NCBI RefSeq assembly: GCF_035920445.1
Contig: NZ_CP109162.1
Span: 6,758,001-6,822,000 of the forward strand
DNA length: 64,000 bases
Direction: 5' to 3'
Source of the DNA: Nocardia sp. NBC_01730
GTDB taxonomy: Bacteria > Actinomycetota > Actinomycetes > Mycobacteriales > Mycobacteriaceae
Part shown: piece by piece, positions 11,117-64,000 of the stretch
Layout: the number at the start of each line of letters is the position of its first letter
How positions within the stretch are numbered: the first letter of the stretch is position 1
Position numbers and translations under genes: made by a program
Notes under the pieces: generated by a model
Databases searched by the model: none
What the model was told of the DNA's origin: nothing
Seen by the model: the letters and a program-made list of their open reading frames with translations, nothing else

Positions 11117-11149
11117 TTGGACGTGTGACCCAGCGCTCACCAGCAACTT

Positions 11150-11169: not shown

Positions 11170-11309
11170 TGGTCACGACGAGGTAGAGTTCCCGTCACAA
11201 CGGACGCCAAAACGTTATCTAGTTCGGCTTCACCGGATCGTTATAAACCGGTCGTCGCCAAGTATGGCATCCGGGATGGACCCCTGTTCTTCGAGGCAAG
11301 GACGCAGTT

Positions 11310-13506: not shown

Positions 13507-13593
13507 CTCTCGGACCGTACTGGCCCCGGAAAACACGACCTTGATCGGGGTTTGGCCGGGTTCTGGCTTGACGCGAGAGGTGAATGCACTCGA

Positions 13594-21230: not shown

Positions 21231-21258
21231 TTGGTTAGGGGTCAGTCCCTTATATGAT
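21231..21258 (+). promoter_or_regulatory. predicted promoter of NRPS2
   Basis: TTGGTT (21231-21236) and TATGAT (21253-21258) are separated by 16 bases, a good vegetative-type pair. The -10 block GTCAGTCCCTtATATGAT is shared with the NRPS1 promoter region. NRPS2 starts 87 bases downstream of the -10. AGGG and CCCT in the spacer form a short inverted repeat. Confidence 0.5.
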
Positions 21259-21344
21259 TGCTCGGACCGCACTGGTCCTGGACATCATGCCCTGATCTGG
21301 GTAGGGCCGGGTCCTGGCTCGATGCGAGAGGTGAATGCACTCGA

Positions 21345-28785: not shown

Positions 28786-28880
28786 AGCGGCAGGATGTGC
28801 AGAGTTTTTATGATTCGCTTGTCGGAAAATAGTCTGCAGGCCCATGGGTGGGGACCCAGGAAGCGGAAAGCGGGGGTCGC

Positions 28881-40800: not shown

Positions 40801-41123
40801 CCGCATTGCACGCCACGATTCCGGCGGAGTTGGTCACGGTGACCCCGGAGCGGCTGCGCCGGATCTATCGCAGCGCGGTCCGCTCGGCCGAGCTGATCGC
40901 CGAGCACCGTCCAGGGATGTTCCACGGCACGGTGGAGTACTTCAGCGCGGCCGTGGCCGACCCTGCCGACGAGCTGCGCGCCGCCGCGACGGACTGGCAG
41001 TCGTACGTGTCCGGCGCGGTCGTGGACCGGCCGATCGAGGTCACGCACGCTCGGATGGCGACACCCGAGGCGCTCGCCGCGCTCGGCCCGCAGCTGGCCG
41101 CACTGCTCGACCGTCGTCCGTAG
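28881..41123 (+). CDS. NRPS3: four-module NRPS with terminal thioesterase
   Basis: 4080 residues from GTG 28881, which aligns with the NRPS4 and NRPS5 starts ([19 protein letters not shown]); an ATG 33 bases upstream is possible but less well placed. Approximate domains: A1 20-525, PCP1 530-605, C1 621-1060, A2 1075-1585, PCP2 1590-1665, C2 1682-2130, A3 2150-2655, PCP3 2663-2735, C3 2752-3195, A4 3212-3728, PCP4 3736-3810, TE 3820-4080. P-loops and A10 Lys are intact in all A domains, all PCPs have GGNSL, and TE has GWSLGG with Ser3904. C2 has HHIAADA (Gly to Ala in the last motif position). By-eye codes: DALFVGAVA (A1, perhaps aromatic), DVWDFILVS (A2), DLWHLILVS (A3), DFWNVGMVH (A4, threonine). 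There is no starter C, so A1-PCP1 either loads a chain or completes a split module with the C-A* of NRPS1 or NRPS2. TE releases or cyclises the peptide. Confidence 0.96.
28929..33745 (+). repeat. 4.8-kb near-identical block, NRPS3 copy
   Basis: This block covers A1-PCP1-C1-A2 and part of PCP2. It matches 41453-46269 in NRPS4 at a constant offset of 12524 bases. One difference was noticed (g32438 against a44962, a silent ACG/ACA change). The edges are sharp: the N-terminal coding tips before it and PCP2 after it differ. Confidence 0.9.
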
Positions 41124-41404: not shown

Positions 41405-44400
41405 ATGACACGCCCGGCCCGCGTCCGCCCGAACCGGACCCGGCGGCCACACGTCACTACGCTTCCGCAGTTGTTGGCGACGGCGGTTGAGGCGAATCCG
41501 ACTGGTGTTGCGGTTGTTTTTGCTGATGCGGTGGGTGTGTTGGCGCGGTTGAGTTATGCGGAGTTGGATGAGCGGTCGACTCGGTTGGCTCGGTTGTTGA
41601 TCGGTTGGGGTGTGGGGCCGGAGGATCTTGTTGCGGTGGGGATTCCGCGTTCGGTTGATTCTGTGGTTGCGGTGTGGGCGGTGGCTAAGACTGGTGCGGG
41701 GTTTGTGCCGGTGGATTCGAATTATCCGGTTGATCGGGTTGAGCATATGGTGCGGGATTCGGGGGTGGTGTTGGGTTTGACTGTTGGGGGTGTGGTGGAT
41801 GGGTTGCCTGGTGGTGTGGAGTGGTTGGTTATCGATTCCGATGTTTTTGTGCGTGAGTTGGAGGGTTATTCGGTCGAGCCGGTCACTTATGCGGATCGGT
41901 TACGGCCGTTGCGGGCGGAGCATCCGGCGTATGTGATTTACACCTCGGGTTCGACGGGTGTCCCGAAGGGTGTTGTGGTGACCCAGGCGGGGTTGGCGGG
42001 TTTGTGTGTGGAGCAACGTGACCGGTATCGGGTGAGCGAGGTGTCACGGACGTTGCATTTCGCGTCGCCGTCGTTCGATGCGTCGGTGTTGGAGTTGTTG
42101 CTCGCGGTTGGTGGTGCGGCGACGATGGTGGTGGTGGCGCCGACGGTTTACGGTGGCGATGAGTTGGCTGTGTTGTTGGGGAGGGAAGGGGTGACGCATG
42201 CGTTCGTCACGCCTGCCGCGTTGGCTTCGGTGGATCCTGCTGGTCTCGAGGAGTTACGGGTTGTCGTGGTGGGTGGGGAGGCGTGTCCGTCGGAGTTGGT
42301 GCGTCGTTGGGTGATTCCGATTCCTGGTGGTGAGCGTGAGTTCTATAACGCTTACGGGCCGACCGAGGCGACGGTCGCGACGAATATCAGTGCGTCGTTG
42401 CTGCCGGGTGTGGCGGTGATGATCGGTGCGCCGATCCGGGCGGTCACCGAGTATGTGTTGGATGACCGTTTGGTCGCGGTCCCGGTTGGTGTGGTCGGTG
42501 AGTTGTATATCGCTGGACCGCAATTGGCTCGTGGTTACCGGCAACGACCTGGTCTGACGGCTGGGCGTTTCGTGGCGAACCCGTTCGATGTGAATGGTTC
42601 CCGGCTTTATCGCACCGGTGACTTGGTGCGCTGGAGCGCCGATGGCGAGTTGGAGTATTTGGGCCGTAACGACTTCCAGGTGAAGATCCGCGGTTTCCGT
42701 ATCGAGTTGGGCGAGATCGATGCTGTGCTCACCGACCATGAAAGCGTCGATTTCGCTGTCACGGTCGGGCACCGGTTGGACAGCGGGGCGACGATCCTCG
42801 TGTCCTATGTACACGCGATGGGTGGGCACTCGATCGATGTCGGTGGGTTGATCGCGCATGCCGAACGCAGCCTGCCCGCGCATATGGTGCCGACCTCGGT
42901 CATGGTGCTGGAAGAGGTCCCGCTGACTCCCGCGGGCAAGTTGGACCGTGCGGCGCTACCCACACCACACCTGCAGGCCAGGATGTTCCGTGCACCGGTG
43001 GGGCCGTGGGAAGAGTTGGTCGGGGAGGTGTTCGGTGAATTACTCGGCGTGGGTGAGCGGGTCGGTGCGGACGACGATTTCTTCGAGCTCGGCGGTAACT
43101 CGCTGATCGCGACGCAGGTCGCGGCTCGGCTCGGCGCGTCGGTCGGTGTGCGGATACCCGCCCGGATAGTTTTCGGGGCACCCACGGTCGCCTTACTCGC
43201 TGCGCGGCTCGCCGAATTCGAAGGCGGCCCAGCACGTCGCGCGTTGGTTGCGGTGCAGCGCCCGCAACAAATCCCGTTGTCGTTGGCGCAGCAGCGGATG
43301 TGGTTTCTGAATCAGTTCGATACCGGTTCCGCGGTGAACAATATTCCGTTCGCGATCCGGTTGTCGGGTGCGTTGGACGTCGCGGCGTTACAGGCGGCGG
43401 TCGTGGATGTGATCGAGCGTCACGAGTCGTTGCGGACGGTGTATCCGGCGGTGGACGGTTCGGGATATCAGGTGGTTGTGCCTGCGGCCCAGACGGTCGC
43501 GGACCTGACACCCACACCGATCACCGAGCACGAACTCCTGGACTGGTTACGCGGATACGCCTCGACCGGGTTCGACGTCGCGGCCGAAGTGCCTGTGCGC
43601 CTGTCGCTGGCCCGGCTCGGTAACGATGACTACGTTCTCGCTGTGGTGGTGCACCACATCGCCGCCGATGGCACCTCGATCGCTCCGCTGGTACGTGATC
43701 TGATGACCGCCTACCTCGCGCGTCGCGCCGCCACCGCACCCGGCTGGGCTGCGCTGCCGGTGCAGTACGCGGACTACACCCTGTGGCAGCGCGCGGTCCT
43801 GGGCCAGGAGAACGACCCGGACTCGGTGGCCGCGGCGCAGATCGCTTTCTGGCGTGCGGGCCTCGCGGGCGTTGCGGGTCGGCTCGACCTCCCGATGGAC
43901 CGCCCGCGACCCACACACGCCTCGGGGCGCGGCGCGGTGTTCACCTTCCTACTCGACACACCGATCAGAGCAGGGCTCGACGATCTCGCCCACGCCAGTG
44001 GTGCTTCATTGTTCATGGTGGTGCACAGCGCTTTCGCCGTGTTACTGGCCCGACTGTCCGGTATCGGCGATATCACCATCGGTACACCGGTCGCTGGGCG
44101 CGGCGAGCCCGAACTCGACGGGCTGGTCGGCATGTTCGTCAACATGCTGGCACTACGGACCGTGGTCGATCCCGCATCGTCGTTCCGCGACCTGCTCGAA
44201 ACGACCATAGAAACCGATCTCGCGGCGTTTTCCCATGCCGAGTTACCGTTCGAGCGGCTGGTCGAGGTCCTGGACCCGCCACGTTCGCAAGCACACCACC
44301 CACTGTTCCAGGTGGCGTTGTTCTTCCAAAACATGGATCAGGCACAACTCGAACTACCAGACCTGTCGGTGAACACCGTCGAATTCGACAACACAGCCGC

Positions 44401-47400
44401 CAAATTCGACCTACAACTCACCATCACACCACAACAAGGCCCCGACACAGGCCTCACCGGCATGTTCACCTACGCCACCGACCTATTCGACCAGACGACT
44501 GTGCAAGGGTTCGCGCAGCGGTTCACTCGTTTGCTGGGGGAGATCCTCACCGCGCCACACACTCCGGTAGGTGATCTGGAACTGCTGGCGCCTGCTGAGC
44601 AGGGTCGGATCCTGCACGAATGGAACGATACGAAGCATCCGGTCCACTCCGGGTTGCTGCTGGATGGGTATCGGCGTGCGGTGGCTGCCGATCCGGGCGC
44701 GGTAGCGGTGGTGTTCGAGGGTGTCGAACTGACTTATGGTGAGTTCGACGCACGAGTGAACAGGCTTGCGCGGTTGCTGATCTCGCAGGGTGTGGGCGCG
44801 GAATCGTTGGTGGGGTTGGCCCTGCGGCGTTCACCCGACCTCGTGGTCGGCATGTATGCGATCGCCGCGGCGGGTGGGGCGTGGGTGCCGCTGGACCCCG
44901 ACCAACCAGCCGAACGCATCGCACACATCCTGGACACCGCTCAACCGGCCTGTGTCGTGACAACCAGTACGGACGCGGTCACCGTGCCCGGCGATATCAC
45001 CGTCCTCACGATGGACACACTGGACCTCGACCGATTCGACTCTTCCCCGGTGCGTGCTGGGGAACTACTGCGTCCGGTATCGCCGCAGCATCCGGCGTAT
45101 GTGATTTTCACGTCGGGGTCGACAGGTCGGCCGAAGGGTGTGGCGGTATCGCATGCGGCGATCAACAACCAGATCGAGTGGATGTTGGCGCAATACCCAC
45201 TCGGTCGGGGTGATGTGTATCTGCAGAAGACAGCGACAACGTTCGATGTGTCGTTGTGGGGTTATTTCATGCCGTTGCGGGCAGGCGCGAAACTGGTCGT
45301 CGCTACGCATGACGGGCACCGCGACCCTGCCTACGTCGCGGACACGATCACCGCGCAACGGGTCACGGTCACCGATTTCGTGCCCTCGATGCTGGCGGTA
45401 TTCGCCACACAGTTGACCCCGGGGTCGGTTCCGACGCTGCGGGATGTTTTCGTGATCGGTGAAGCGCTGCCACCGGAAACAGTGACAGCCTGGCAGACCG
45501 TATCCGGTGCGGTACTGCACAACCTCTACGGTCCGACCGAGGCCGCGGTATCGGTCACCTACTGGCCCGCCGACGGGCGTGACGAGCGGACCGTACCGAT
45601 CGGGCGCCCGCAATGGAACACCCAGGTGTATGTGCTGGACTCACGCCTGCGCCCGGTCCCGGCCGGGGTGCCCGGTGAGTTGTATCTGGCCGGTGACCAG
45701 CTGGCACGCGGTTATGTGACTCGACCGGATTTGACCGCGGACCGGTTCATCGCCAGCCCGTTCACGGCCGGTGAGCGGATGTACCGCACCGGTGACCTCG
45801 TGGTATGGCGCGCACCAGCAGGGGATCTCGCGCACCGGCTGGAATACATCGGGCGCACCGATTTCCAGGTGAAGTTCCGTGGACAACGCATCGAACTCGG
45901 CGAGATCGAAACCGCGTTGCTGACACAACCCGGCGTGAGCCAAGCAGTAGCAGTAGTCACCGGATCGAGCCTGGGCGACCAACTGGTGGCTTATGTGGTC
46001 GCCGCAGCGGGAGATCGGATCGATCCGGTCGCGCTACGGTCGAGGATCAGCGACATCCTTCCCACCTACATGGTTCCCGCGGCGGTCGTGGAGTTGGACG
46101 CGTTCCCGCTGAACACCAGCGGCAAACTCGACCGCAAAGCACTACCCGAGCCGGAGTTCGAAGCGAAGGTGTTCCGTGCACCCTCGACACCGGTCGAAGA
46201 GATCGTGGCGGGGGTGTTCGCTGACGTGCTCGGTATCGAGCGGGTCGGCGCGGATGATGACTTCTTCGCTTTGGGTGGCAACTCACTGATCGCTACCCAG
46301 GTCACCGCACGCCTTGGTGAGGCGTTGAGCACGCGTGTTCCGGTGCGGTTGCTGTTCGAAGCGGCGACTGTCGCGGCGTTGGCGGTTCGGGTCGAGCGGC
46401 AGGCAGGCACCCTCGGGCGGGTGGCGTTGGTCGCTGGTCGCCGCCCGGAGCAGGTCCCGTTGTCGCTGGCTCAGCAGCGGATGTGGTTTCTGAATCAGTT
46501 CGATACCCAGTCCACGGCCTACAATCTGCCGATCGCGGTCCGGTTGACCGGCTCGTTGGATGTGTCGGCGCTGCGTGCGGCGATCACGGACCTGGTAGGC
46601 AGACACGAGGTTCTGCGTACGGTGTATCCGGCCCTCGACGGGGACCCGATACAGCTGATTTTGTCGCCGGCTCAGGCGGCGTTGCCGTTGACGGTGCGGT
46701 CGATCCCCGCGGTGGATGTCGAATCCGCTGTCGTGGGATTGGTTTCGACGCAGTTCGATGTCACCGGTGAGGTGCCGGTACGGGTCGCGCTGTTCGAGAT
46801 CCAGGACGCCGGGGCAGTCCCGGAATATGTGATCGCGATGGTGGTCCACCACATCGCCGGCGATGGTTGGTCGGTCGGCCCGCTGGTGCGGGATCTGATG
46901 ACCGCGTATGTCGCACGCTCCTCAGGCGAGTCACCGAACTGGGCTCCGCTACAGGTGCAGTACGCCGACTACAGCATGTGGCAGCGTGAGCTACTGGGCA
47001 GCGAGGACGACCCGGGTTCGCTGATGTCGGATCAGGTCACCTACTGGCGGAGGGCACTGGCAGATCTACCCGAACAGCTCGACCTGCCCGCGGATCGGCC
47101 ACGTCCGGCGACGCAATCCTTCACCGGTGCCACCGTGGAAGTGGATATCGATGCCGAGGCCCACCGTGGGCTGATCGAGGTCGCGCAGTCCCAGAGCGCG
47201 ACACTGTTCATGGTCGTGCACACCGCGTTGGCGGTGTTGCTGGCCCGGTTGTCGGGCACCACCGATATCGCGATCGGCACACCGATGGCCGGCCGGGGTG
47301 AAGCCGCGCTCAACGATCTGATCGGGACATTCATCAACACACTGGTATTCCGCAGCCACATAGATACCGGTGAAGCGTTCACCGATCTGCTCGCACGTCA

Positions 47401-50400
47401 ACGCGAAACCGACATCCAAGCATTCGCGCACGCGGATGTGCCGTTCGAACGACTGGTCGAGGTACTCAACCCGGCACGTTCCACAGCACGCCATCCACTG
47501 TTCCAGGTCGGTTTATCGTTCCAGAACCTGGCCGTCACCACACTCGAACTGCCAGGGCTGACAGTGTCGGGAGTGGACTTCGACACCGCGATCTCACAGT
47601 TCGACCTGCACCTGGTCCTCGCCGACCGATACGACCAGTCAGGGACACCGACCGGCCTCACCGGCATGTTCACCTACGCCACCGACCTATTCGACCAGAC
47701 GACTGTGCAAGGGTTCGCGCAGCGGTTCACTCGTTTGCTGGGGGAGATCCTCACCGCGCCACACACTCCGGTAGGTGATCTGGAACTGCTGGCGCCTGCT
47801 GAGCAGGGTCGGATCCTGCACGAATGGAACGATACGAAGCATCCGGTCCACTCCGGGTTGCTGCTGGATGGGTATCGGCGTGCGGTGGCTGCCGATCCGG
47901 GCGCGGTAGCGGTGGTGTTCGAGGGTGTCGAACTGACTTATGGTGAGTTCGACGCACGAGTGAACAGGCTTGCGCGGTTGCTGATCTCGCAGGGTGTGGG
48001 CGCGGAATCGTTGGTGGGGTTGGCCCTGCGGCGTTCACCCGACCTCGTGGTCGGCATGTATGCGATCGCCGCGGCGGGTGGGGCGTGGGTGCCGCTGGAC
48101 CCCGACCACCCAGCCGAACGCATCGCACACATCCTGGACACCGCTCAACCGGCCTGTGTCGTGACGACCAGTACGGACGCGGTCACCGTGCCCGGCGATA
48201 TCACCGTCCTCACGATGGACACACTGGACCTCGACCGATTCGACTCTTCCCCGGTGCGTGCTGGGGAACTACTGCGTCCGGTATCGCCGCAGCATCCGGC
48301 GTATGTGATTTTCACGTCGGGGTCGACAGGTCGGCCGAAGGGTGTGGCGGTATCGCATGCGGCGATCAACAACCAGATCGAGTGGATGTTGGCGCAATAC
48401 CCACTCGGTCGGGGTGATGTGTATCTGCAGAAGACAGCGACAACGTTCGATGTGTCGTTGTGGGGTTATTTCATGCCGTTGCGGGCAGGCGCGAAACTGG
48501 TCGTCGCTACGCATGACGGGCACCGCGACCCTGCCTACGTCGCGGACACGATCACCGCGCAACGGGTCACGGTCACCGATTTCGTGCCCTCGATGCTGGC
48601 GGTATTCGCCACACAGTTGACCCCGGGGTCGGTTCCGACGCTGCGGGATGTTTTCGTGATCGGTGAAGCGCTGCCACCGGAAACAGTGACAGCCTGGCAG
48701 ACCGTATCCGGTGCGGTACTGCACAACCTCTACGGTCCGACCGAGGCCGCGGTATCGGTCACCTACTGGCCCGCCGACGGGCGTGACGAGCGGACCGTAC
48801 CGATCGGGCGCCCGCAATGGAACACCCAGGTGTATGTGCTGGACTCACGCCTGCGCCCGGTCCCGGCCGGGGTGCCCGGTGAGTTGTATCTGGCCGGTGA
48901 CCAGCTGGCACGCGGTTATGTGACTCGACCGGATTTGACCGCGGACCGGTTCATCGCCAGCCCGTTCACGGCCGGTGAGCGGATGTACCGCACCGGTGAC
49001 CTCGTGGTATGGCGCGCACCAGCAGGGGATCTCGCGCACCGGCTGGAATACATCGGGCGCACCGATTTCCAGGTGAAGTTCCGTGGACAACGCATCGAAC
49101 TCGGCGAGATCGAAACCGCGTTGCTGACACAACCCGGCGTGAGCCAAGCAGTAGCAGTAGTCACCGGATCGAGCCTGGGCGACCAACTCGTGGCCTACAT
49201 CGTGCCCAGGTCAGGACACACCGCCGAGCAGACCGAACTGATTACCGCGATCAGCGAACGTCTACCCGCCTACATGGTGCCCGCGGCAGTCGTGGAGTTG
49301 GACGCATTCCCGCTGAACACCAGCGGCAAACTCGACCGCAAAGCACTGCCCGCACCAGAATTCGAGACCAAACTATTCCGTGCCCCCTCCACACCGACCG
49401 AGGAAATCATCGCGAACGTATTCGCCGACGTACTCGGCATCGAGCAGATCGGCGCCGACGACGACTTCTTCGCCCTGGGCGGCAACTCACTAGCCGCCAC
49501 ACAAGTCGTAGCACGCATCGGCGCCGCACTCGACTCACGAGTCCCAGTACGAACACTCTTCGAAACATCCACCGTCGCCGGACTCGCTGTGCGGGTCGCG
49601 GTCACGGCGGGTGCCGCCGCGCCGATCGAGCTGGCCGAACTGCCCGGCGGCGGTGTCGGCGAGATTCCGCTGACGCCGGTGCTTACCGCATATCTCGAAC
49701 AGGGTGGCTACAACCGGTTCTCGCAGAGCATGGTGTTGGGCCTGCCGGACGGAATCGATCGCGCAGGACTGGTCGCCACCATCGCCGCCGTTCTCGACCA
49801 CCACGATGTGCTGCGCTCGCGAGTGCGGCGCGTCGACGGGCAGTGGCAGTTCGAGGCGCTGCCGCTCGGTGGCATGGACGTGAACACGCTCATCTCCGAG
49901 GTCGACGTGCCGGCCGGAGTCGAAGAGACGGAGCTGAACCGGATTGCCGGGAAGGCGATGGATTCCGTGCTCGCGACGCTGGATCCGGCCGCAGGCAAGA
50001 TGATCACCTTCACTTGGCTGCGCCGCCCCGACGCACCCGACGCTGTCACCGTCGCGGCCCATCATTTCGTCATCGACGGTGTGTCGTGGCGCATCCTGAT
50101 CCAGGACCTCGCGGTGGCTTCGGCGCAGCGAGCGGCGGGGCAGAGGGTCACGCTGCCCGCCGTCGGGACCTCGTTCCGGCGCTGGGCACATGGCCTGGCC
50201 GCGGCGGCCACGGCAGCGGAGCGTACCGGCGAGGTCGACTACTGGCGGCAGGTGATGGCCACGCCGGATCCGTTGCTCGGTACCCGCGCCCTGGATGCCT
50301 CGGTGGACACCGATGCGACGCGCGGGCAGATCGGCATCCAGGTGTCGGCCGAGGTCACCGACGCTGTCCTGACCGAGGTTCCGGCGCTGTACCGCGCCGA

Positions 50401-53400
50401 TGTCATCGACGGCCTGCTGGCCGCGCTCGCCGTGGCGGTGCGCACCTGGCGGGCGCGACGCGGCATCGAAGCACCCGTCACCCGGGTGCAGCTCGAGGGC
50501 CACGGCCGCGAGGAGGGCATCGTGCCCGGCGCCGACCTGACCCGCACCATCGGCCGATTCACGAGTATCTACCCGGTGGCCCTGGATCTGTCCGGCATCG
50601 ACACCGAGGCCGCCCTGGCCGGCGGTGTAGCCGCTGCGGCGGTACTCAAGTCGGTGAAGGAGCAGTTGCTCGCGGTGCCGGACAAGGGCATCGGCTACGG
50701 CATGCTGCGCTACTCGAACGAGGCCACTGCCGGCGAACTCACCGGTGACCTCGGGCAGATCGGCTTCAACTATCTCGGCCGTGTCTCGGCTGGTGGAGTG
50801 TCCGAGGGCATGGCCGATCCGGGCCGGCTGCCGACCGGCGATCCGGGAGCCATTGCGGGCAAACAGGATTCGGCGATGCCGATGCCCGCGGTGATCGACA
50901 TCAACGCGATCGTCAACGAGACCGCCGCCGGTCCGCGGATGGATGTGTCGTTCGCCTACGCCGCCGAGATCATCGGTGAAGCGGACGTCCGCGAGCTCGC
51001 CGACGAATGGCTGTCGGCACTGACCGCGCTCGCCTGCCACACCCAGGATCCGGCGGCCGGCGGGCTCACCCCGTCGGATGTGCCGCTGGTGCAGGTCACC
51101 CAGGATGAGCTGGACACCTGGCGGCAGACGCGGCCGGGTCTGTCCGATGTGCTGCCGCTGTCGCCGCTGCAGGCGGGACTGTTGTTCCTCGCCGAAGCGT
51201 CCCCGGTGGACGACTACATCATGCAGTTCGCGGTGGAGCTGTCCGGCGATGTCGATCTCGCGCGGCTGCGCGGCGCCGCGCAGGCGGTTCTTGATCGGCA
51301 CGCGAACCTGCGGACCTCCTTCGTCGCCGCCGCCGACGGCACCCCCGTACAGCTGGTGGTGGACGCCGTCGAGGTGGGATGGCAGGTCGTGGAGGATGTG
51401 CACGATGCCGAGCTGCCTGCGATTCTGGAAGCCGATCTGCGGCACCGGTTCGATCCGGCGGTGGCGCCGCTGGTGCGATTCGCGTTGTACCGCACCGAAT
51501 CCGGAAGTGCCCACCTGGTGCTGACCACCCACCACATCCTGCTCGACGGCTGGTCCATGCCGTTGCTGATGAAGGACCTGCTGGTCCTGTATGCGACGCA
51601 CGGTGATTCGTCGCAGCTTCCGCGGGTGCGGCCGTACCGCGACTACCTGGCGTGGCTGTCGCGTCAGGATCGCGATGCGGCGCTGCGGGCGTGGGCGGAG
51701 GCGCTCGACGGGCTGGAAGCGACTCCGCTCGCGCCCGCACTGGCGCGGCGCGCGGCACCGGAGCCGGGTGTCGAGACACTGGTGTTCGACCTGTCGCCGG
51801 AGCAGACCTCGGCGCTGGCGGCATTCGCCGCCGAATCCGGCGTCACCGTCAACACGGTGGTGCAGGCGGTCTGGGGCTTGGTGATCGCGGCCGGAACCGA
51901 TCGCGATGATGTGGTGTTCGGCGCCGCGGTGTCCGGTCGGCCGCCGCAGCTCGACGGCATCGACGATATGGTCGGTCTGTTCGTGAACACCATCCCGGTT
52001 CGTGTTCGGTTCGATCCGCGGTGGACCGTGCGAGAACTGCTCGGCCGCTTGCAGTCCGCGCAGGCAGCCCTGCTGGACCGGCACTACCTGGGGCTGGCCG
52101 ATATCCAGCACGCCCTCGGTGTGGACGGACTGTTCGATTCGCTGCTGGCGTACGAGTCCTATCCGATCGACACCGAAGGGCTGCAGCAGCGGGCGAGTTC
52201 GATCGACGACATGGCCATCACGGGTCTGCAGAGCGTCAACTTCAGCCACTATCCGCTGACGGTGCTGGTGGAACTGACCGCACAGCTGACGGTGAAGGTG
52301 ATCTACCAGCGCAACACCGTCGACGGTGCGGCCGCACAGGCTGTCACCGACCGGATGCGGATGCTGATCGGCGAATTCGTCGCCGGTCCGCGGCGCACGC
52401 TGGCAGCGACCAACCTGCTGCTCGACGCCGAGCAGGCGGCGTTGGACGCGGTGAACGACACCACGGCACGGGAATTCGTGGACGACGCGACACTGGTTTC
52501 GTTGTTCCACGCCCAGTGCGAGCGCACTCCCGACGCGCCCGCGGTGACATTCGGCGACGAGACGCTGACCTATGCGGAGCTCCGGTCGCGCGCGAGTCGC
52601 CTTGCCGGAGAACTCGTCCGGCGCGGTGCGGGCCCGGAGACCAGGATCGCGGTCGCGATGCGGCGTTCGCTGGAGCTGGTGGTAGCGATCTACGCGGTGC
52701 TGGAAACCGGCGCGGCCTATGTGCCGGTCGACCCGGATCATCCGGTGGAACGCAATGATTACGTGCTCACCGGTTCGGCGCCGCTGTTCGTGCTCACCAC
52801 GGTCGAGGACGGGTTCGAAACCGACACCGCGGCGACGGTGCTCGATATCGAGCGGCTCGAACCCGCTTCGCAAGAGGTGAATATCGCGACCGCTGCCGAG
52901 CGGATCTCCGAGCCGAGCGAGTCGCGTCCGGGTGCCGTGAGAGTACGGCCGGACAACACCGCCTACGTTATCTACACCTCGGGCTCCACCGGACGCCCGA
53001 AGGGTGTGATGATCACGCACCGGCAGATGGTGAACCAGTTCCGCTGGAACCAGCGCGAATACCCGCACACCACCGGCGATGTGGTGCTGCACAAGACCCC
53101 GATCACGTTCGACATCTCGACGTGGGAGTTGTTTTGGCCGTTGCAGACCGGCGCCCGTATCGTGGTCGCCGAACCGGACGGGCACCGCGATCCACGGTAT
53201 CTGGCCGAGGTGATCGAGAAGGAGTCCGTCAGCACGGTGCACTTCGTGCCGTCGATGCTGGACGCGTATCTGGAACTGGAGCAACTCCCGAATACCTTGC
53301 CGTGCCGGGTTTTCGCTGCCGGTGAGGCGCTGACCGCCACCACCGCGGCCGCGTTCCACGACCGGATGTCCGGCGAGTTGTACAACTGGTATGGCCCCGC

Positions 53401-55126
53401 CGAGGCGACGGTGGTGACCGCCGCCGCGGTGCCTGCTTCCACTCCGCTGTCTCCGACCGGCCGTGGCGAGATCCGCGGCGCGGTGCCGATCGGTGCCCCG
53501 GCGGCCAATACCCGGGTATTCGTGCTCGACCGCCAGCTGCGGCAGGTGCCGGTCGGCGCGACCGGCGAACTGTACGTTGCCGGTGTGCAATTGGCTCGCG
53601 GCTACCTCGGTGCGCCGGCGTTGACGGCCGAACGATTCGTCGCCAACCCGTACGAGCCGGGCGCCCGGCTCTACCGCACCGGTGACATCGTCAAGCTGGT
53701 GGGCCGTTCCGCAAGCTCCGCCCCCGCAGGAGAACTCGATTCCCCCGTCCTCGAATACCTCGGACGCGCCGACTTCCAGGTGAAACTGCGCGGCCAGCGC
53801 ATCGAGCTGGGCGAGATCGAAGCCGTCCTGCTGGAGCACGATTCAGTCGGTCACGCCGCGGTCGCGCTGGTACCGGAGCCGGATCGCCTGGTCGGCTATG
53901 TGGTGGCCGCATCCGGTCACATGATCGACGAGGCGGCACTGCTCGAGCACACTCGACGTGGGCTGCCGGCGTACATGGTGCCGTCGGTGCTCGTCACGCT
54001 GCCGGAGCTGCCGCTGAACGCGAGCGGAAAGCTTGATCGCAAGGCGTTACCGGTCCCCGCCTTCACCGCGCGGCCCTACCGCGAGCCGGTGACCCCGCTG
54101 CAGCAAGCGGTCGCGGCGGTGTTCGCGGAGGTGCTCGGTATCGAACGGGCCGGTCTGGACGACGACTTCTTCGCGCTGGGCGGCACCAGCCTGGTCGCCA
54201 GCCAAGCGGTGAGCCGGCTGCGTCGGGCCACCGGCGCGCAACTGCGGGTGCAGTGGTTCTTCCTGGACCCGACGGTGGCCGGTATATCGACTCGGATCAT
54301 GGAGGCGCTGGAATCCGGCCTCGACTACGATGCTGGCTCCGATGCCTCGATGAGCGTGATACTGCCGATCCGCAAGACCGGCAGCCGGAAACCGCTGTTC
54401 TGCATCCACCCGATGTACGGCCTGTCCTGGTGCTACAGCGGGCTGGCCCAGCAGCTGGACACGCAGCAGCCCATCTACGGTGTGCAGTCCCCGGCGCTGT
54501 CGGAGGACGCCGATCCGCCGGAGTCCTTGCACGACATGGCCGCCCGCTACCTGGCGGAGATCACCGCCGTCCAGCCGGAGGGGCCGTACCGCCTGCTCGG
54601 CTGGTCGCTCGGCGGTGTGCTCGCGCACGAGATCGCGGTGCGGTTGCGGGCGGCAGGGCAGGAAGTCGAGCTGCTCGCCATGCTGGACAGCGACCACAGC
54701 TTCGACATCGACTTCTTCCACGACGCCATGCTGGAGGTGCTGGCCGAGATCGGTATCCAGGGCATCGACCCGCAACAGTTGAGTGTGCTGAGCGAAGCGG
54801 ACTTCATGAAGCTGTACGAGGCGCTCCCGACGGACATGGTGGCGTTGACGCCGGACCGGCTGCGGCGGATCTACACCAGTGCGGTGCGGTCGGCCGAACT
54901 CACCCAGAGCTACACCCCGCAGGTGTTCGACGGGACGGTGCAGTTCTTCAAGGCCATGCAGAACGACGGCGTGCAGCGGGACATCGTCGCGGCGTGGCGG
55001 CCCTACGCCGCCGGGGTCACCGTGCACCAGGTGGCGGCCAGCCACGAGACGATGACCCAGCCCGAGGCGCTGGCCGTCATCGGCCCCGTGCTGGCCGATC
55101 TGCTGCAGGCCGGCGACCGGAAGTAG
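41405..55126 (+). CDS. NRPS4: four-module NRPS with epimerase and thioesterase
   Basis: 4573 residues from ATG 41405 (GGAAGGGG upstream). Approximate domains: A1 20-525, PCP1 530-607, C1 621-1061, A2 1075-1585, PCP2 1590-1665, C2 1683-2128, A3 2143-2653, PCP3 2658-2732, E 2748-3218, C3 3242-3675, A4 3692-4218, PCP4 4225-4298, TE 4312-4573. E carries HHFVIDG and NYLGRV-type motifs. The C after it starts [12 protein letters not shown] and has HHILLDG, typical of a DCL domain that accepts a D-residue donor. The module-3 residue is thus D-configured. By-eye codes: DALFVGAVA (A1, perhaps aromatic), DVWDFILVS (A2 and A3, same sequence), DIWHFAWVV (A4, unassigned). TE has GWSLGG with Ser4401. PCP3 before E has GGNSL, not the GGDS often seen there. 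Motifs look intact throughout. Like NRPS3 it lacks a first C, so it may follow NRPS2 or NRPS1 or start alone. Confidence 0.96.
41453..46269 (+). repeat. 4.8-kb near-identical block, NRPS4 copy
   Basis: Second copy of the block at 28929-33745. Both copies carry the same unusual codon style in A1 (many TTG, GTT and GGT codons) and C-ending codons in the C domain, so the copies descend from one mosaic parent. Confidence 0.9.
47654..49188 (+). repeat. third copy of the A2 domain block inside NRPS4
   Basis: About 1535 bp match 44450-45984 of the same gene (offset 3204) and 31926-33460 of NRPS3. Two differences from 44450-45984 were noticed: a silent change at 48166, and CAA to CAC giving DPDH instead of DPDQ. 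The block runs from the end of the C domain through almost all of the A domain, so A3 of NRPS4 is a recent copy of A2. Confidence 0.9.
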
Positions 55127-55462: not shown

Positions 55463-58400
55463 ATGACCCGCCCGGCCCGCATGCACCCGACCCGCCCGAG
55501 CAGACGGCCCCGCGTCACTACGCTGCCACAGCTGATGGTCACTGCCGTCGAGGCCAATCCGAGCGGCACCGCCCTGGTCTTCGCCGACGCGACCAGCACG
55601 TCGGCCCGGCTCAGCTACGCCGAACTGGACGAGTGGTCGACCCGGTTGGCTCGGCTGTTGATCGGACGCGGCGTCGGACCCGAGGACCTGGTCGCGGTCG
55701 GGTTTCCGCGCTCGATCGCCGCCGTGGTCGCGGTCTGGGCGGTGGCCAAGACCGGCGCCGGGTTCGTCCCGATCGACCCGACCTACCCCGCCGACCGGGT
55801 CGAGCACATGATCGTCGACTGTGGAGCGGTCTTCGGGCTGACCGTCGACGAAGTCCGCGCCGATCTGCCGGATCGGGTCGAGTGGCTGTCCATCGATACC
55901 GCCGAGTGCGCGCGGCTGCTCGAGGAGTTCCCGGCCGACCCGGTCACCTACGCGGATCGGCTGCGCCAGCTGCGGGCCGAGCATCCCGCGTATGTCATCT
56001 ACACCTCGGGTTCGACGGGTATGCCGAAGGGCGTCGTGGTGACCCAGGCCGGGTTGGCGAGCTTTTGTGCGGAGCAGCGCGACCGGTGCCGGGCGACCGG
56101 TGCGTCGCGCACGTTGTATTTCGCGTCGCCGTCGTTCGATGCGTCGGTGTTGGAGTTGCTGCTCGCGCTTGGTGGGGCGGCCACGATGGTGGTCGCGTCG
56201 CCGACGGTGCACGGCGGCGATGAGCTGGCCGCGCTGTTGCGCAGGGAGGGTGTGACGCATGCGTTCGTCACGCCCGCCGTGCTGGCGTCGGTGGATCCCG
56301 CGGGCTTGGACGAGCTGCGTGTCGTGGTCGTCGGTGGCGAGGTGTGCCCGCCGGCGCTGGTGCGGCGCTGGGCACTACCGGTCTCGTCTGGGCGAACCCG
56401 TGAGTTCTTCAACGCTTACGGGCCGACCGAGACCACGATCATGACGAACATCAGTGCACCATTGGTGCCCGGCGCGCCGGTGTCTATCGGCGCGCCGATC
56501 CGGGCGATCACCGAGTACGTGCTGGACGAACGTCTGGCGCCGGTCCCGATCGGCGTGGTCGGCGAGCTGTATATCGCCGGAGCGCAGCTGGCCCGCGGCT
56601 ATCATCAGCGGCCAGGGCTCACGGCCGTGTGGTTTGTGGCGAATCCGTTCGACTCGAATCATCCCCGGCTCTACCGCACCGGTGATCTGGTGCGCTGGAC
56701 CGCGGACGGTGAGTTGGAGTATCTAGGCCGTAATGACCTCCAGGTGACGATCGACGGTCTCCGTATCGTGCTCGGCGAGATCGACGCGGTGCTCGCCGCG
56801 CACGAGAGCGTCGATTTCGCCGTCACCGTCGGGCACCAGCTGAACAGCGGCGCCACGATTCTCGTCGCCTATGCGCACGCAGCTCCCGGGATGGCGGCGG
56901 ACGCGGCCGAACTGGCCGCCCTCGCCGAGCGGAGTCTGCCCGTGCACATGGTGCCGACGGTGGTCATGGTGCTGGACGAGATTCCGCTGACCCCGGTGGG
57001 CAAGGTGGATCGCCATTCGCTGCCCACACCGCGTTTGCGGACCGCCATGTTCCGCGCACCGGTCGGACTGCTGGAAGAGCTCGTCGCAGAGGTGTTCGCC
57101 GAACTGCTCGGGCCGGGAGCGGCGGTCGGCGCGGACGACAATTTCTTCGAGCTCGGCGGCACCTCGCTGACCGCGGCCGAGGTCGCGGCCCGTCTCGGCG
57201 CCGCCGTCTCGGCGCGGGTGCCTGTTCGTCTGATCTTCGAGAACGCCACCGTCGCCGGACTCGCCGAGCGGCTGAAGCCGCTGAAGGGCACGGGAGACCG
57301 CCGCGCGTTGGTTCCGGTGGAGCGCCCGGAGCGGGTTCCGTTGTCGTTGGCGCAGCAGCGGATGTGGTCTTCGAATCAGTTCGATACCGGTTCCGCGGTG
57401 AACAATATTCCGTTCGCGATCCGGTTGTCGGGTGCGTTGGATGTAGGGGCGTTACAGGCGGCGGTCGCGGATGTGATCGAGCGCCATGAGTCGTTGCGGA
57501 CGGTGTATCCGGCGGTGGACGGTTCGGGGTATCAGGTGGTTTTGCCTGCGGCCCAGGCGGTCCCGGATCTGGCGCCCACACCGATCGCCGAGCACGAACT
57601 CCTGGACTGGTTGCGCGGATTCGCGCTGACCGGGTTCGACGTCTCGGCCGAGGTGCCGGTGCGCATCGTCTTGGCCGAGCTCGGCCACGACGAACACGCG
57701 ATCGTGGTCGTGGTGCACCACATCGCCGCTGACGACGCCTCGGTCGCGCCGTTCCTGCGGGACCTGCTCGTCGCGTTTCTGTCCCGGCGCAACGGGGCGC
57801 GGCCGTCGTGGGCTCCGCTGCCGGTGCAGTACGCGGACTACACCCTGTGGCAGCGCGCGGTGCTCGGCGACGAGAACGACCCGGACTCGGTGGCCGCGGC
57901 CCAGATCGCCTATTGGCGCCGTGCCCTGGCGGGCATCCCAGATCGGATCGACCTGGCCTCCGACCGGCCGCGTCCGGTCGTCGCCTCCGGCCGAGGCGCG
58001 GAGTACACCCTCGAGGTGGATGCCTCGGCGCATCGCGGGCTCGCCGAGCTCGCGCAGCGCACTGGCACCTCGGAGTTCATGGTGGTGCACAGCGTGCTCG
58101 CGGCCTTGCTCGCCCGGCTCACCGGGACCGCCGACATCACCATCGGCACACCGGTCGCGGGTCGCGGCCAGCGGGAACTCGACGGGCTGATCGGCATGTT
58201 CGTCAACATGCTTGTGCTGCGCACCAGGATCGACCAAGGCGCGTCGTTCCGTGCGCTGCTCGCCGACGCCGAAGAGATCGATTCGGCGGCGTTCTCGCAT
58301 GCCGAGCTGCCGTTCGAGCGGTTGGTCGAAGTGCTGGACCCGGTGCGTTCGCAGGCGCACCATCCGCTTTTCCAGGTGGCGCTGTTCTTCCGGAACATGG

Positions 58401-61400
58401 GCAGGCCGGAGATGGAGCTGCCCGGGTTGTCGGTGCGGCCGATGGATGTGGATGGCGCGGTCGCCAAGTTCGATCTGCGGCTGACCGTAGTACCCGAGAG
58501 CGAGGACGATGCCGCGGGCTTTTCGGCGAAATTCACCTACGCCACCGACCTGTTCGACGAGTCCACGATCGCCGAATTCGCCTGGCGGCTGGAGCGGTTG
58601 CTCGCTGCTGTCGTCGCGGCGCCGGATCGGGTGATCGGCGAGATCGATCTGCTGGCTCCCGATGAGCGGGAGCAAATTCTGCTCGGGTGGAACAACACCC
58701 GGCAAGCGGTGCCCGCCGAGCTTTTGCTCGATGGATATCGACGTGCGGTGGATGCGTTCCCGGACACGGTCGCTGTGGTGTTCGAGGGTATCGAGCTGAC
58801 TTATGATGAGTTCGACGCGCGGGTGAATCGTCTTGCGCGGTTGTTGATTTCGCGGGGCGTTGGTGCGGAGTCGTTGGTGGGGTTGGCGGTTCGGCGTTCG
58901 CTGGACCTGGTGGTCGGCATGTACGCGATCGTGGCGGCGGGTGGGGCGTATGTGCCGCTGGATCCGGATAATCCGGTCGAGCGTATCGCGCACATCCTGG
59001 CGACGGCGCAGCCCGCCTGCGTGCTCACCACTTCCACCGACGCGGTCGAAGTGCCCGAGGGTACCGCGGTGCTGCTGCTGGACGCGATCGACCTCGACGG
59101 TGTCGACAGCGCTCCGGTGCGTGCCGAGGAACTGCTTCGTCCGGTGTGGCCGCAGCATCCGGCATATGTGATCTTCACATCGGGGTCGACCGGTCGGCTC
59201 GCGGGCGTGGCGATTTCGCACGCGGCGATCAACAATCAGATCGCGTGGATGCTCGCGGCGTATCCGCTCGGTCCCGCGGATGTGTATCTGCAGAAGACCG
59301 ATACGACACTCGATGTGTCGCTATGGGGCTATTTCATGCCGCTGCGTACGGGCGCGAAGCTCGTAGTCGCGCCGCCGGAGCGGCATCGTGACCCGACCTA
59401 TATCGCGGAAACTATTGCCGCGCAGCGAATTACGGTGACGGACTTCGTGCCGTCGATGCTGGCGGACTTCGCCGCGCATACCGTGTCGGGCTCGTGCCCG
59501 ACATTGCAAGACGTCTTCGTGATCGGCGAGGCGCTGCCGCCGGAGACCGTCGCGGCGCTGCGTGCGGTGTCGAACGCGAACGTGCACAACCTGTACGGTC
59601 CGACTGAGGCCGCAGTGTCGGTCACGTACTGGCCTGCCTCTGCCACGGCCGTGGAGCGGCCCGTGCCGGTCGGCGTGCCGCAGTGGAACACCCGAGTGTA
59701 TGTGCTGGACTCACGTCTGCATCCGGTCCCCGCGGGTGTTCCCGGCGAGCTCTATCTCGCCGGTGTTCAGCTGGCGCGTGGTTATGTGCGGCGCCCGGAT
59801 CTGACCGCGGATCGGTTTGTGGCCAACCCGTTTGCCTCGGGTGAGCGGATGTGCCGCACCGGTGACTTGGTGGTGTGGCGCAGGTATGCGGATGAGGCGG
59901 TGCTCGATTACCTGGGTCGGACCGTGCCTCGAATCGTCGCCGACGCGTCGCCGATGGGTCCGCTGGTGCGGGATGCGATGGTCGCCGAAGCCACGCGGGC
60001 GGAGGGTGCGGAGCCGGGTGGGTCGCCGTCGCGGGTGCAATACGCCGACCATGTGTCGGAGCAGCGTGTGGTGCTGGGTGATGAGTCCGATCCCGAATCC
60101 ATTGCCGCGCAGCAGATCGGGTTCTGGCGTAGCGAGTTGGCTGATCTGCCTGATTTGCTGGAGTTGCCGACGGATCGGCCGCGACCGGCTGTGGCGTCGA
60201 TGGCCGGTGCGCGAGTGGATGTCGAGATCGCCCCGGCGACGCATGCCGGACTCGTCGAACTCGCCCGTGCGCACGGTGCGACATTGTTCATGGTCGTGCA
60301 CACCGCGTTTGCGGTGTTGCTGGCTCGGTTGTCGGGCAGTTCGGATGTTGCGATCGGTACGCCCGTCTCTGGCCGTGGTGAGCGTGAGCTCGATGATTTG
60401 ATCGGTATGTCCGTCAATACTGTGGTGCTCCGCACGCGGTTCGAGCCGGGTGAGTCGTTCACGGCGTTGCTGGGTAGCCAGCGTGCATCCGATTTGCAGG
60501 CGTTCGCGCACGCGGATATTCCGTTCGAGCGGTTGGTGGAGGTGCTGAATCGGCCGCGTTCGACGGCGCATCATCCGTTGTTTCAGGTGGGATTGTCATT
60601 CCAGGACATTGCGCGGGTGGCGTTCGAATTGCCTGGTTCGGTGGTGGCGGGTCTGGATGCGGATTCGGATGTGTCGCAGTTCGATCTGCATTTGATCATC
60701 GGTGATGCGTATGACGAGTCGGGTGCGCCTGCCGGTATCGGTGGTTTCTTCACGTATGCCACCGACCTTTTCGACGCGGCCACGGTGCAGGGCTTCGCCG
60801 ACCGGCTGGTGCGGCTCTTATCGTTCGTGGTCGCCGATGCCGCTGTTCCCGTCGGGGATATCGACATCCTCGCCGACACCGAGCGAGCCGACGTGCTCGC
60901 GGTGTGGAACGACACCGCGCACCCGGTAGCGACGGCGGCGAAGTTGGGATCGTTGTTGCGGCGGTCGGTGATGACAGTGCCAGAGGCGGTCGCGCTGGTC
61001 GCGGACTTCCCCACGGACGGGCGCAGGGAGCTGAGTTACGCCGAGCTGGCCGCCCAGGTGAATCGCCTTGCCCGCTATCTGATTTCCGTCGGCGTCGGTC
61101 CGGAGTCACGGGTTGCGCTGGCGTTGCGCCGGTCGGTGGATTTGGTTGTGGCGATGTACGCGGTGGCAGAGGCGGGTGGCGCGTACGTGCCGGTGGATCC
61201 GGACCAGGCTGCCGAACGCACCGCCTACATCCTGGCCTCGTCCGCGCCGGTGTGCGTGCTGACGGACGCCGATGCCGGGTTCGACACCGATGTCGCGCCG
61301 GTGGTGCGGCTCGACGACCTCGAACTGGCGTCCGTGCTGAGCGGGCCGATCGCCGACGCCGAGCGGATCGCACCGCTGCGTCCGGAGAACACGGCGTACG

Positions 61401-64000
61401 TGATCTTCACCTCGGGTTCGACCGGCCACCCGAAGGGTGTGGCCGTGCCGCACGCCGCGATCGTGAACCAATTGCTCTGGAAGGCAGGCGCCTTCGAGCT
61501 GATGGGGGACGACGCGGTGCTGCTCGAGACCGCGACGACCTTCGACTTGTCGGTGTGGGAGTTCTGGTCGGCTGCCGTCTGTGGCGGCAGGCTGGTGATC
61601 GCGGCGCCGGAGGGACATCGCGATCCGGCGTACCTGAGCGAGCTGATGGCGCGGGAGTCGGTCACGACGCTGCATGTGGTGCCGTCGACGCTGGATGCGC
61701 TGCTGGCGCACCGGGTGTCCGCCGACAACGCCGCCGCGGCGTGGTCGCTCCGGCGGGTGCTCGCCATCGGTGAGGCGCTGCCCCCTGCGCTGGCTCAGCG
61801 CTTCCGCGCGACGTATCCGGATGTCGAACTGTTCAATCTGTATGGTCCGACGGAGGCCGCGGTGTCGATCACGTGCCACCGGGTGACCGAGTACGACCAG
61901 ATCTCGGTGTCGATCGGTGTGCCGGAGTGGAACAGCCGAGTGTACGTGCTGGATGCACGGCTGCGACTGGTGCCGGTGGGTGTTTCGGGTGAGTTGTATT
62001 TGGCGGGTGCGCAACTTGCTCGCGGTTATTTCGGCCGGGCGGATCTGACCGCGGATCGGTTCGTTGCCAACCCGTTCCAGTCCGGCACCAGAATGTATCG
62101 CACGGGTGACCTTGTCACGTGGAATGCCAGTGGTGAGCTCGAATACCGGGGTCGCACGGATTTCCAGGTGAAGATTCGTGGTTTCCGTATCGAGTTGGGT
62201 GAGGTCGAGGCGGCGTTGTCGACGTCACCGGAGGTCGCGCAGACCGCGGTGATCATGAAGTCCGATCCGAAAACCGGTGGGGATTATCTGGTGGCCTATC
62301 TGGTTCCTGGTGATGCCGATGCGGGTGTGGATGTCGCGCGGGTGAAGTCCGAGCTGACCGCGGGCCTGCCATCGTTCATGGTGCCGTCGGCGTTTGTGGT
62401 GGTGGATGCGTTGCCGTTGACTGTGAACGGCAAGGTGGATCGGAAGGCATTGCCCGAGCCGGAGTCCGAGGTTCAGGTGTTTCGTGCGCCGTCGACGCCG
62501 GCCGAGGAGAGCGTCGCCGGGGTGTTCGCTGAGGTCCACGGGGTCGATCGTGTTGGTGCGGATGATGAGTTCTTCGCGCTGGGTGGTAATGCAGAGCTGG
62601 CGACGCAGGTCGCGCCGCGGATCGCTGTCGCGCAGAACCCGACCACTGCCGACGGCGACCTGCAGATCCTGGACGACTCGGAGATCCTGGACGACTCGGA
62701 GATCCTGGACGACTCGGAGCGCGCGGACCTGATCGCGCGCAGTGGCACCGACGCCGTGCCGTCGCGCACGCTGCCGGAGCTGATGGCCGCCGCCGTCGCC
62801 GCGAATCCGACCGGCATAGCCGTGGTCGCGGGTGAGCACACCGTCAGCTACACCGAACTCGATGAGGCATCCGCGCAGTTGGCGCGCGCGCTGATCGACC
62901 GCGGCGCGGGCCCGGACGTGCCGGTCGCCATCGCTATCCGGCATTCGGCCGAATCGGTTCTCGCGTTGTGGGCGGTGGCCAAGACCGGTGCGGCGTTCGT
63001 GCCGATCGACCCGACGTACCCGACCGATCGCATCGCGCACATGGTCGCCGATTCCGGTGCGACGCTCGGCGTGACGCTGACCGCCGAGCTGGTCGACCTG
63101 CCACCCCTGTCCAGTGGCGCCTGGGTCGCCTTGGACGACCACGATTTCACCGCCGATGTCGGGGCACGCTCGGATCGTCCGCTCACGTCCGACGACCTGC
63201 GCGGGCTACTGCACAGCGACAACGCCGCGTCCGTGATCTACCCTTCCAGCTCCACCGGTCTGCCCAAGGGTGTCGTCGTTACCCATGCCGGACTGGTGAA
63301 CTTCAGCGCCGAGCAGGTGGAGCGTTACCGGCTCGACCAATCCACGCCCGCACTGGCGTTCGCGTCACCGTCCCTCGATCCGTCGGTGCTGGAACTGCTG
63401 TTCGCGCTGGGCTCCGCCGGCGGTCTCGTGGTTGCGCCTCCGCTGACCTTCGGCGGCGAGAAACTGGCCGAGCTGATCCGTGCCGAGGGTGTCACACACG
63501 CCTTCCTCACCCCTTCGGTGCTCGCCTCGCTCGAACCCGCCGCACTGGCCCGCGCCGCCGTAGTCGAGGGCGGCCCCGGCGACGAGGCGGGCGAGCTGCC
63601 GCTGACGCCGAACGCGACACGGCTGCTGGACGCGGGCGTCGAGGTGCGGGCCATCGCCATGGACGTGCCCGAGACCTGCCCGGTCGAGATGGTGCGGGTC
63701 GGGGTGGCCGCCGTGCTCGAGCAGCACCCGATGCTGTGGGTACGGGTGGAGTACGCCGCCGACGGCATGCCGGTGTTGCGCATCCCCGCCGTCGCCGAGC
63801 GCACCGGCGAGGCGTTCCGTCGACTGGATCCGCAGCGCGGCGAGACCTCGCTGCCGATCGATGACGTGGTGCAGGCGGCCGCGGCGGCCCTGGACCCGGA
63901 GCAGGGTCGCAACATCCACTTCGTGCTCACCGGCGGACCCGAGGCCCGCTCGACCCTCATCGTTGTGGCCAGCAGCCTCGTGGTCGACGACATCTCCTGG
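55463..64000 (+). CDS. NRPS5: open but catalytically damaged NRPS (3' end outside window)
   Basis: ATG 55463 aligns with the NRPS4 start ([20 protein letters not shown]). The frame stays open for 2846 codons to the window edge. Approximate regions: A1 20-525, PCP1 529-606, C 624-1072, A2 1085-1488 (stops before A8), C-terminal half of a C domain 1490-1799, A3 1822-2329, PCP 2336-2393, a short C-end remnant with a triple repeat 2395-2428, N-half of an A domain 2432-2710, start of an E domain from 2712. Changes at core positions: A1 A8 motif [14 protein letters not shown] motif HHIAADD, A2 P-loop STGRLAG (Lys1247 position to Ala), second C His-His replaced by Pro-Arg, PCP GGNAEL (Ser2377 position to Ala), last A P-loop PSSSTG, E motif SSLVVDD. 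PCP1 and A3 look intact. By-eye codes resemble those of NRPS3 modules 1-3. It is either a decaying gene or a non-catalytic scaffold. Confidence 0.88.
62666..62719 (+). repeat. three tandem 18-bp units inside NRPS5
   Basis: ATCCTGGACGACTCGGAG is repeated exactly three times (62666, 62684, 62702), encoding ILDDSE three times in frame. Normal C-A linkers carry one such phrase. It marks replication slippage right at the place where an entire C domain is missing. Confidence 0.95.

Follow-up and report, generated by a model that had tools for sequence, protein, structure and literature searches.

In-frame decay of the terminal peptide synthetase of a conserved Nocardia gene cluster, with a candidate non-catalytic end state in related genomes

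Why should a nonribosomal peptide synthetase (NRPS) gene stay open over its whole length while many of its catalytic motifs are altered? The question is raised by NRPS5 (N5), the last of five NRPS genes (N1–N5) lying in tandem on the plus strand of Nocardia sp. NBC_01730, in a single 8.68-Mb contig. The window is a stretch of 64,000 nucleotides of that contig (NZ_CP109162.1, positions 6,758,001 to 6,822,000), which N5 enters at 55463 and leaves still open. An earlier note on this DNA had suggested a pseudo-synthetase kept as a scaffold, decoy or recombination donor, or simply a young pseudogene. We consider it fairly likely that N5 is a degenerating, still selected copy of the synthetase that ends a conserved Nocardia NRPS cluster, on its way to becoming a pseudo-synthetase. 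Modules 2–4 would have lost function through in-frame deletions together with carrier or motif lesions, and the frame would stay open because other parts of the polypeptide are still needed, namely a pseudo-epimerase domain (E*), probably PCP5-TE, and folded domain remnants. In a clade of eight genomes this conversion looks complete, the product being a giant, apparently non-catalytic pseudo-synthetase under strong purifying selection, which may act as a binding or assembly platform.

The earlier note had found no stop in the 2846 codons up to the window end, and this holds further downstream: no early stop or frameshift follows position 64000, and the frame of 4488 codons ends normally at 68929, after C-A-PCP-TE. 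In relatives the orthologous synthetase has about 5600 aa and the order A1-PCP1-C1-A2-PCP2-C2-A3-PCP3-C3-A4-PCP4-E*-C5-A5-PCP5-TE; it lies directly downstream of another NRPS gene, and several genomes show the order N1-like, N3-like, N5-like. Thirteen intact orthologues were aligned with N5 as the reference set for lesions. Relative to one of the relatives, G170, N5 has three large in-frame deletions (338, about 470, and 315 codons), where the note had counted two or more. Their edges are ragged rather than module-exact, and beside the second the motif ILDDSE is present in three copies (62666-62719). DNA searches of 99 and 150 genomes for the first and third junctions returned no contiguous copy among the matches listed, in which other genomes match the junction DNA as separate pieces about 1 kb apart.

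Six of the seven motif lesions previously reported are absent from all 13 intact orthologues. These are the altered A8 motif of A1, the DG to DD change in C1, PK to LA in A2, His-His to Pro-Arg in C2, Ser to Ala in the PCP, and TSGSTG to PSSSTG in a domain that the note took for the last A domain; it is A4, and A5 follows beyond the window with an intact A3 motif. The seventh, His-His to Ser-Ser in the E domain, is no lesion, as the 13 orthologues have SS, NG, GS, or NA there. A working C, A, and PCP are not present in every elongation module, since PCP2 and PCP4 are deleted and PCP3 has lost its Ser; in addition C2 is halved, C3 is mostly lost, and the P-loops of A2 and A4 are altered. PCP1, PCP5, C5 (HHILIDG), A5 (TSGSTG), and TE (GWSLGG) are kept.

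Changes of conserved residues are not confined to these motifs. N5 differs at 182 of the 2575 columns invariant in the 13 orthologues; N3, the same-genome control, differs at 136 of 2611 in a comparison with its own eight-orthologue set, so the rate in N5 alone is not abnormal. Enrichment was tested for PCP3, where changes exceed those of other domains outside E*+PCP5+TE both in N5 (9/40) and in a close relative, P0123 (9/47; one-sided p 3.5e-5 and 1.5e-4, respectively).

Selection was estimated with simple purpose-written code (GY94, F3x4, without site classes; 14 sequences for N5). On the N5 branch omega (dN/dS) is 0.135 vs. 0.083 elsewhere (twice the log-likelihood difference, 2dL, 45.8), and omega = 1 is rejected (2dL 559), though the long stretch of the branch on which the gene was functional dilutes this test. 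For N3 on the same branch omega is 0.095 vs. 0.0835 (2dL 2.7), not significantly raised, so the relaxation belongs to N5. N5 is modestly relaxed, not neutral; a neutral pseudogene would be expected to show an omega near 1, stops, and frameshifts, whereas the observed value is 0.135 and 4488 codons hold no stop. The per-domain check suggested by the earlier note likewise gives values that are not near 1 everywhere (0.068 to 0.298): omega is raised in the C2 remnant (0.264), the PCP3 region (0.298), and the A1 subdomain with PCP1 (0.211), and not raised in E* or in PCP5+TE (0.068 each). The leader and GGAAG site of N5 are conserved, which is uninformative since the relaxed phase was too short. 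Polarity on the next gene, an esterase about 200 bp away, was considered as a cause of the open frame and thought unlikely.

The decay is not peculiar to one strain. The two copies nearest to N5 among those found are decaying too, with partly different lesions: P0123 (5451 aa), about 90% identical to N5 across the first 1487 residues, and P0124, from Nocardia sp. 2YAB30. P0123 has the C1 Gly to Asp change and some of the alteration in the A8 motif of A1 in common with N5, so that the decay began before their split; its own lesions include a 150-residue in-frame deletion removing PCP2. PCP3 has been lost in three ways in the three relatives, by substitution of its Ser in N5 (to Ala) and P0123 (to Thr), and by a 60-residue deletion in P0124. 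Changes unshared among the three avoid E*+PCP5+TE, a grouping picked after the N5 data and then applied to the other copies: 5/422 vs. 94/2150 outside in N5 (Fisher 0.0008), 5/425 vs. 119/2712 in P0123 (0.0007), and 3/425 vs. 44/1497 in P0124 (0.007). The short N-terminus of P0124 is probably a contig break like that in G042, where a frame of 3463 codons, as in P0124, extends to the end of its contig; the missing 5′ part was absent from the best 120 matches of a protein search. A protein search with an A2-C2 region put long multi-module proteins at the top, and the nearest relative is not identifiable from that ranking. The grouping of N5, P0123, and P0124 is based on overall identity and on the lesions they have in common; the E* tree does not separate them as a clade from their intact sisters.

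What such decay may lead to is suggested by eight Nocardia genomes (G167, G051, G031, G003, G128, G120, G171, and G127), each with a pseudo-synthetase of more than 3000 residues and the domain order A-C-A-E*-(A). They were taken from census rows with frames of 3.0-3.7 thousand codons, leaving aside others of similar size such as G030, G130, G136, G132, G014, and G004, and the frames of G120, G171, and G127 were read to the end of the fetched stretch. In the E* tree the eight group together as a single clade (support 100) that falls within the intact orthologues. A pattern scan found no A3, HHxxxD, PCP, or TE pattern in any of them, as confirmed in the five full-length frames, and the lost motifs are common to the species. 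Nevertheless omega is 0.091 in A1, 0.115 in C1, 0.149 in A2, 0.076 in E*, and 0.09 in the A5 remnant, each rejecting 1; the linkers have 0.29-0.58. Its sequence shows that the pseudo-synthetase exists in this clade as a conserved protein-coding gene.

The locus is the same in all five genomes checked: as in the window, FMO and regulator genes precede the pseudo-synthetase, and the genes right behind it encode an esterase, an enoyl-CoA hydratase, a TetR protein, and an ALDH; queries for nitronate monooxygenase, HD, NRAMP, and epimerase found no match at these five loci. An N1-like neighbour is degenerate yet open in 4/5 (omega 0.19), with no A3 motif containing the lysine, no more than one HHxxxD, a single remaining carrier motif, and species-specific lesions. 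In G051, two upstream NRPS frames look intact in the checked motifs. The A5 (YGxxE) and A7 (YRTGD) motifs are kept in all three A remnants of the five full-length frames, whereas none of the three retains A3, the A10 motifs of A1 and A2 are changed, and in the third remnant the frame ends soon after A7. The A5 and A7 motifs are thought to contact adenine and ribose, and, if these roles apply, their retention without A3 and A10 hints at ligand binding without catalysis. Conserved dead motifs together with purifying selection, as expected of a pseudoenzyme under selection, are thus found in the eight-genome clade, and not in the window copy alone. The scaffold proposal of the earlier note stands to that extent for the clade, and N5 by itself does not carry it.

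Open but degenerate copies also occur elsewhere in the genus. They were compared with 73 intact-length orthologues (1781 conserved columns), leaving aside P0178, P0195, P0197, P0218, and P0234, which have no long E* match, and P0162. Conserved columns are changed at 5.5% in N5, 4.5% in P0211 (itself one of the 73 “intact” controls), 1.8% in the next-highest control, and 0.28% at the median of the controls. The degenerate copies are those of N. panacis (P0166), N. callitridis (P0194, known from a protein record only), and N. camponoti (P0201). E* is changed at 2, 0, 0, 2, 2, and 2 of 94 positions in N5, P0123, P0124, P0166, P0194, and P0201, respectively, and in N. camponoti E*+PCP5+TE has 4/219 changes vs. 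341/1452 outside (p 2e-18). Single open frames were confirmed in DNA for P0166 and P0201; with 1.5% background subtracted, neutrality would predict 15 stops in N. panacis and 39 in N. camponoti, and none was seen in either. Normal-length N1 and N3 orthologues adjoin the degenerate N5 in N. panacis, and upstream of the N. camponoti copy there is only one NRPS frame, of 2012 codons. In the latter copy (G118:C3:335443-352431) there are also insertions, 37 to 135 residues long, that leave the frame open; some are low-complexity repeats. In the E* tree (58 sequences) P0166 groups with G043 and P0201 with the P0182 group, both intact, and P0194 falls next to the part holding the window copy and its 13 relatives; decayed copies beside intact ones at separate places speak for separate origins.

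E* itself lacks the HHxxxDG of a catalytic epimerization domain. None of 94 readable orthologue-type proteins (95 aligned) has His-His at this site, where NG, NA, and SS prevail, and so the Ser-Ser, pseudo-epimerase state is ancestral and was rejected as a lesion of N5. E* scores 68.4 bits against TIGR01720, below the cut-off of 74.2, and by sequence is a conserved E-type domain without catalytic histidines. An AlphaFold model of it was poor (mean pLDDT 43.5) and was not used. Among 150 Nocardia genomes, 142 have E* matches (E up to 1e-60), of which those of 45-50% identity may be ordinary E domains. No match of at least 50% identity contains a stop, and four of 48-49% do, E*-like matches in G177, G122, G001, and G025 with one stop codon each. 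Short frames in G016, G143, G151, and G125 reach contig ends and so were not counted as truncations. Of 17 census loci examined, eight are of the pseudo-synthetase type, four have E* after the TE, and five have an in-line E*-like domain (49-51% identity; E* motif unrecognised in G111 and G021). The four with a C-terminal E* (G053, G184, G169, and G047; loci L084, L085, L086, and L091) form one clade (support 99), and a domain placed behind the TE could not serve as a normal in-line epimerase.

Several observations weigh against N5 as a copy still under selection. C5 has an omega of 0.247, although it lies within the supposedly kept part. Thirteen relatives have an intact orthologue, which the earlier note had listed among the findings that would count against a scaffold, and most lesions of N5 are recent; the probability of seeing zero stops is for N5 only about 0.009 to 8e-5. 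A target-weighted codon model expects just 1.4-3.5 stops, which makes their absence moderate evidence for N5 alone. In the wider test with 73 references the E*+PCP5+TE grouping is non-significant for P0124 (p 0.28), and in N. callitridis decay reaches the TE (18/100) and A5 (65/201). In P0212 and P0230 E*+PCP5+TE is more changed than the rest (13/219 vs. 20/1257 and 10/219 vs. 15/1257). P0162 (Nocardia cyriacigeorgica), in which E* and C5 are gone through an in-frame deletion of 758 residues and the other checked motifs look normal, indicates that E* is not indispensable, against a reading of E* as the sole essential part. Finally, the search for degenerate members went by long frames and may have passed over broken ones.

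An alternative is a young pseudogene, in which N5 is dying and a stop or frameshift has by chance or in the short time not yet been fixed. For the window copy this is a live rival, if an unlikely one. The intact orthologues and the relaxed omega on the N5 branch are in keeping with it, and the neutral fraction of the branch need be only about 3-8%. On the other hand, neutrality of all 180 changed conserved codons predicts 9.4 stops, and neutrality of half of them 4.7, and none is seen; the decay is partly common to P0123, E* and PCP5-TE are little affected in the three relatives, and the same pattern of in-frame decay turns up in other members of the genus, eight genomes having conserved it.

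We rate as improbable that N5 is a working synthetase that is shrinking, with modules 2–4 skipped or shed and A1-PCP1 and/or C5-A5-PCP5-TE making or releasing a shorter peptide. The intact motifs of PCP1, PCP5, C5, A5, and TE, and the loss of the PCP3 carrier in three relatives, would fit, as would P0212 and P0230, which have lost about one module (the PCP3-C3-A4 region) with the other domains little changed; module skipping is known, according to the part of the paper available to us (PMC5984369). However, the A1 A8 motif and C1 are damaged, the C5 omega is raised, the deletions are ragged, and such shrinkage cannot account for the carrier-less eight-genome form. A recombination donor or decoy kept for the neighbours is very improbable: the neighbours do recombine (N3/N4 99.9% over 4836 bp; N1/N2 about 94%), but among matches over 300 bp and 80% identity between N5 and N1–N4 there is a single 321-bp stretch (81.9%, N4), a DNA donor needs no open frame, and we found no evidence for either role. 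An assembly or sequencing artefact has a negligible chance, for although contigs of several relatives break inside the N5 orthologue, the window lies in one contig, some lesions are common to the independent genome P0123, and other species change alike.

Sequence comparison establishes the orthology, the lesions, their repeated occurrence, and the selection in the clade. That the window copy is on the same road as the clade we infer from the in-frame decay of its relatives and the sparing of E* and PCP5-TE. The remains of the synthetase probably have a job; the idea of a pseudo-synthetase has good support where the family is concerned and is plausible for the window copy. Only tentatively do we extend it to the genus as a whole, in which Nocardia would repeatedly have turned an assembly line into a non-catalytic giant, with E*, its His-His already gone, as a main element kept by selection, the A remnants serving as adenylate-binding or scaffold parts, and the window copy at an early stage.

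Features of N5 and its neighbouring synthetases (positions are those of the window)
Feature	Position	Strand	Remark
NRPS1 (N1)	13552-20943	+	orthologue of the cluster's conserved first synthetase
NRPS2 (N2)	21258-28682	+	
NRPS3 (N3)	28848-41123	+	orthologue of the cluster's conserved middle synthetase; control from the same genome
NRPS4 (N4)	41405-55126	+	
NRPS5 (N5)	55463-68929	+	first 2846 of 4488 codons inside the window (to 64000)
A1 motif A8 lesion (residues 426-436)	56738-56770	+	15-residue stretch altered; partly common to P0123
PCP1 motif LGGTSL	57152-57169	+	Ser kept
C1 HHxxxDG to HHIAADD	57716-57736	+	Gly to Asp; also in P0123
A2 P-loop PK to LA	59174-59206	+	11-residue motif; not in P0123
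Deletion 1 junction	59923-59924	+	338 codons gone vs. G170 (A2 end, PCP2, C2 start)
C2 remnant	59924-60928	+	HH to PR; N5-branch omega 0.264
A3 domain	60929-62482	+	core motifs kept
PCP3 LGGNSL to LGGNAE	62579-62599	+	motif LGGNAEL; Ser to Ala
Remains around deletion 2	62639-62719	+	about 470 codons gone (PCP3 end, most of C3)
A4 N-terminal half	62753-63538	+	A3 motif PSSSTG at 63242-63259
Deletion 3 junction	63538-63539	+	315 codons gone (rest of A4, PCP4)
E* pseudo-epimerase start	63539-64000, continuing to about 64912	+	motif SSLVVDDIS at 63971-63997, ancestral
C5-A5-PCP5-TE of N5	beyond window, up to 68929	+	

N2 is a duplicate of N1, with about 94% DNA identity on both flanks and a strongly diverged or exchanged middle that includes the second A domain, and the near-identity of N3 and N4 marks a very recent duplication or conversion, the tail of N4 differing from N3 and carrying an E domain with an intact HHxxxDG. 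The A3 motifs of both A domains of N1 are altered (TSGATG at 14140-14175 and ISGSTG at 17332-17367), which was unseen in seven orthologues. Elsewhere in the genome an NRPS frame of 14506 codons (G000:C1 3874875-3915611) has several C domains with identical score, which suggests repeated modules.

The cluster resembles Nocardia GCF 6, described as a large conserved NRPS with 7 to 13 modules whose gene environment is invariant (PMC7413640). Its nitropropane dioxygenase (nitronate monooxygenase; window 10052-11176, PF03060), esterase (L070:1127-2194, PF00756), epimerase (L070:3917-4942, PF07993 and PF01370), and enoyl-CoA (de)hydratase (L070:4991-5857, PF00378) are all present beside the window synthetases; its metallopeptidase was not among the frames scanned near the cluster, a scan that covered part of them. 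The portion of that paper at hand describes size variation, and neither degenerate or non-catalytic members nor a pseudo-epimerase (PMC7413640).

Domains that have lost catalysis are known from other assembly lines. Glycopeptide NRPSs contain inactive E domains (PMC1894796) and an X domain that recruits P450s (PMC8949500), and E*, as far as the sections seen of these papers go, is like them an E- or C-like domain that lacks a functional HHxxxDG and is retained in an assembly line; by likeness to the X domain it may be a docking platform (PMC8949500). It differs in that His-His is lacking from every readable orthologue-type protein, in its place after the TE in 4/17 loci, and in its persistence in eight synthetases without recognisable carriers. 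In the myxochromide S synthetase an internal module is inactive and skipped, on the excerpt consulted (PMC5984369), and inactive internal modules are a likeness to N5, in which, by contrast, several modules were lost by ragged deletions and one clade has reached an end state without recognisable carriers.

In pseudoenzymes in general, catalytic residues are gone while the fold is under purifying selection; here the object is a multi-domain megasynthetase of more than 3000 residues. Within a limited library, a literature search found no paper pairing “pseudoenzyme” with “nonribosomal peptide synthetase.” NRPS genes are generally taken as working lines or as dead, and a conserved non-catalytic megasynthetase, if true, would be a third state, one that would mislead genome-based product prediction and that poses the question of what a 3000-residue protein without carriers does. 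The graded series from intact copies through decaying ones (the window clade, N. panacis, and N. camponoti) to the fixed pseudo-synthetase would make the birth of a giant pseudoenzyme traceable within one genus.

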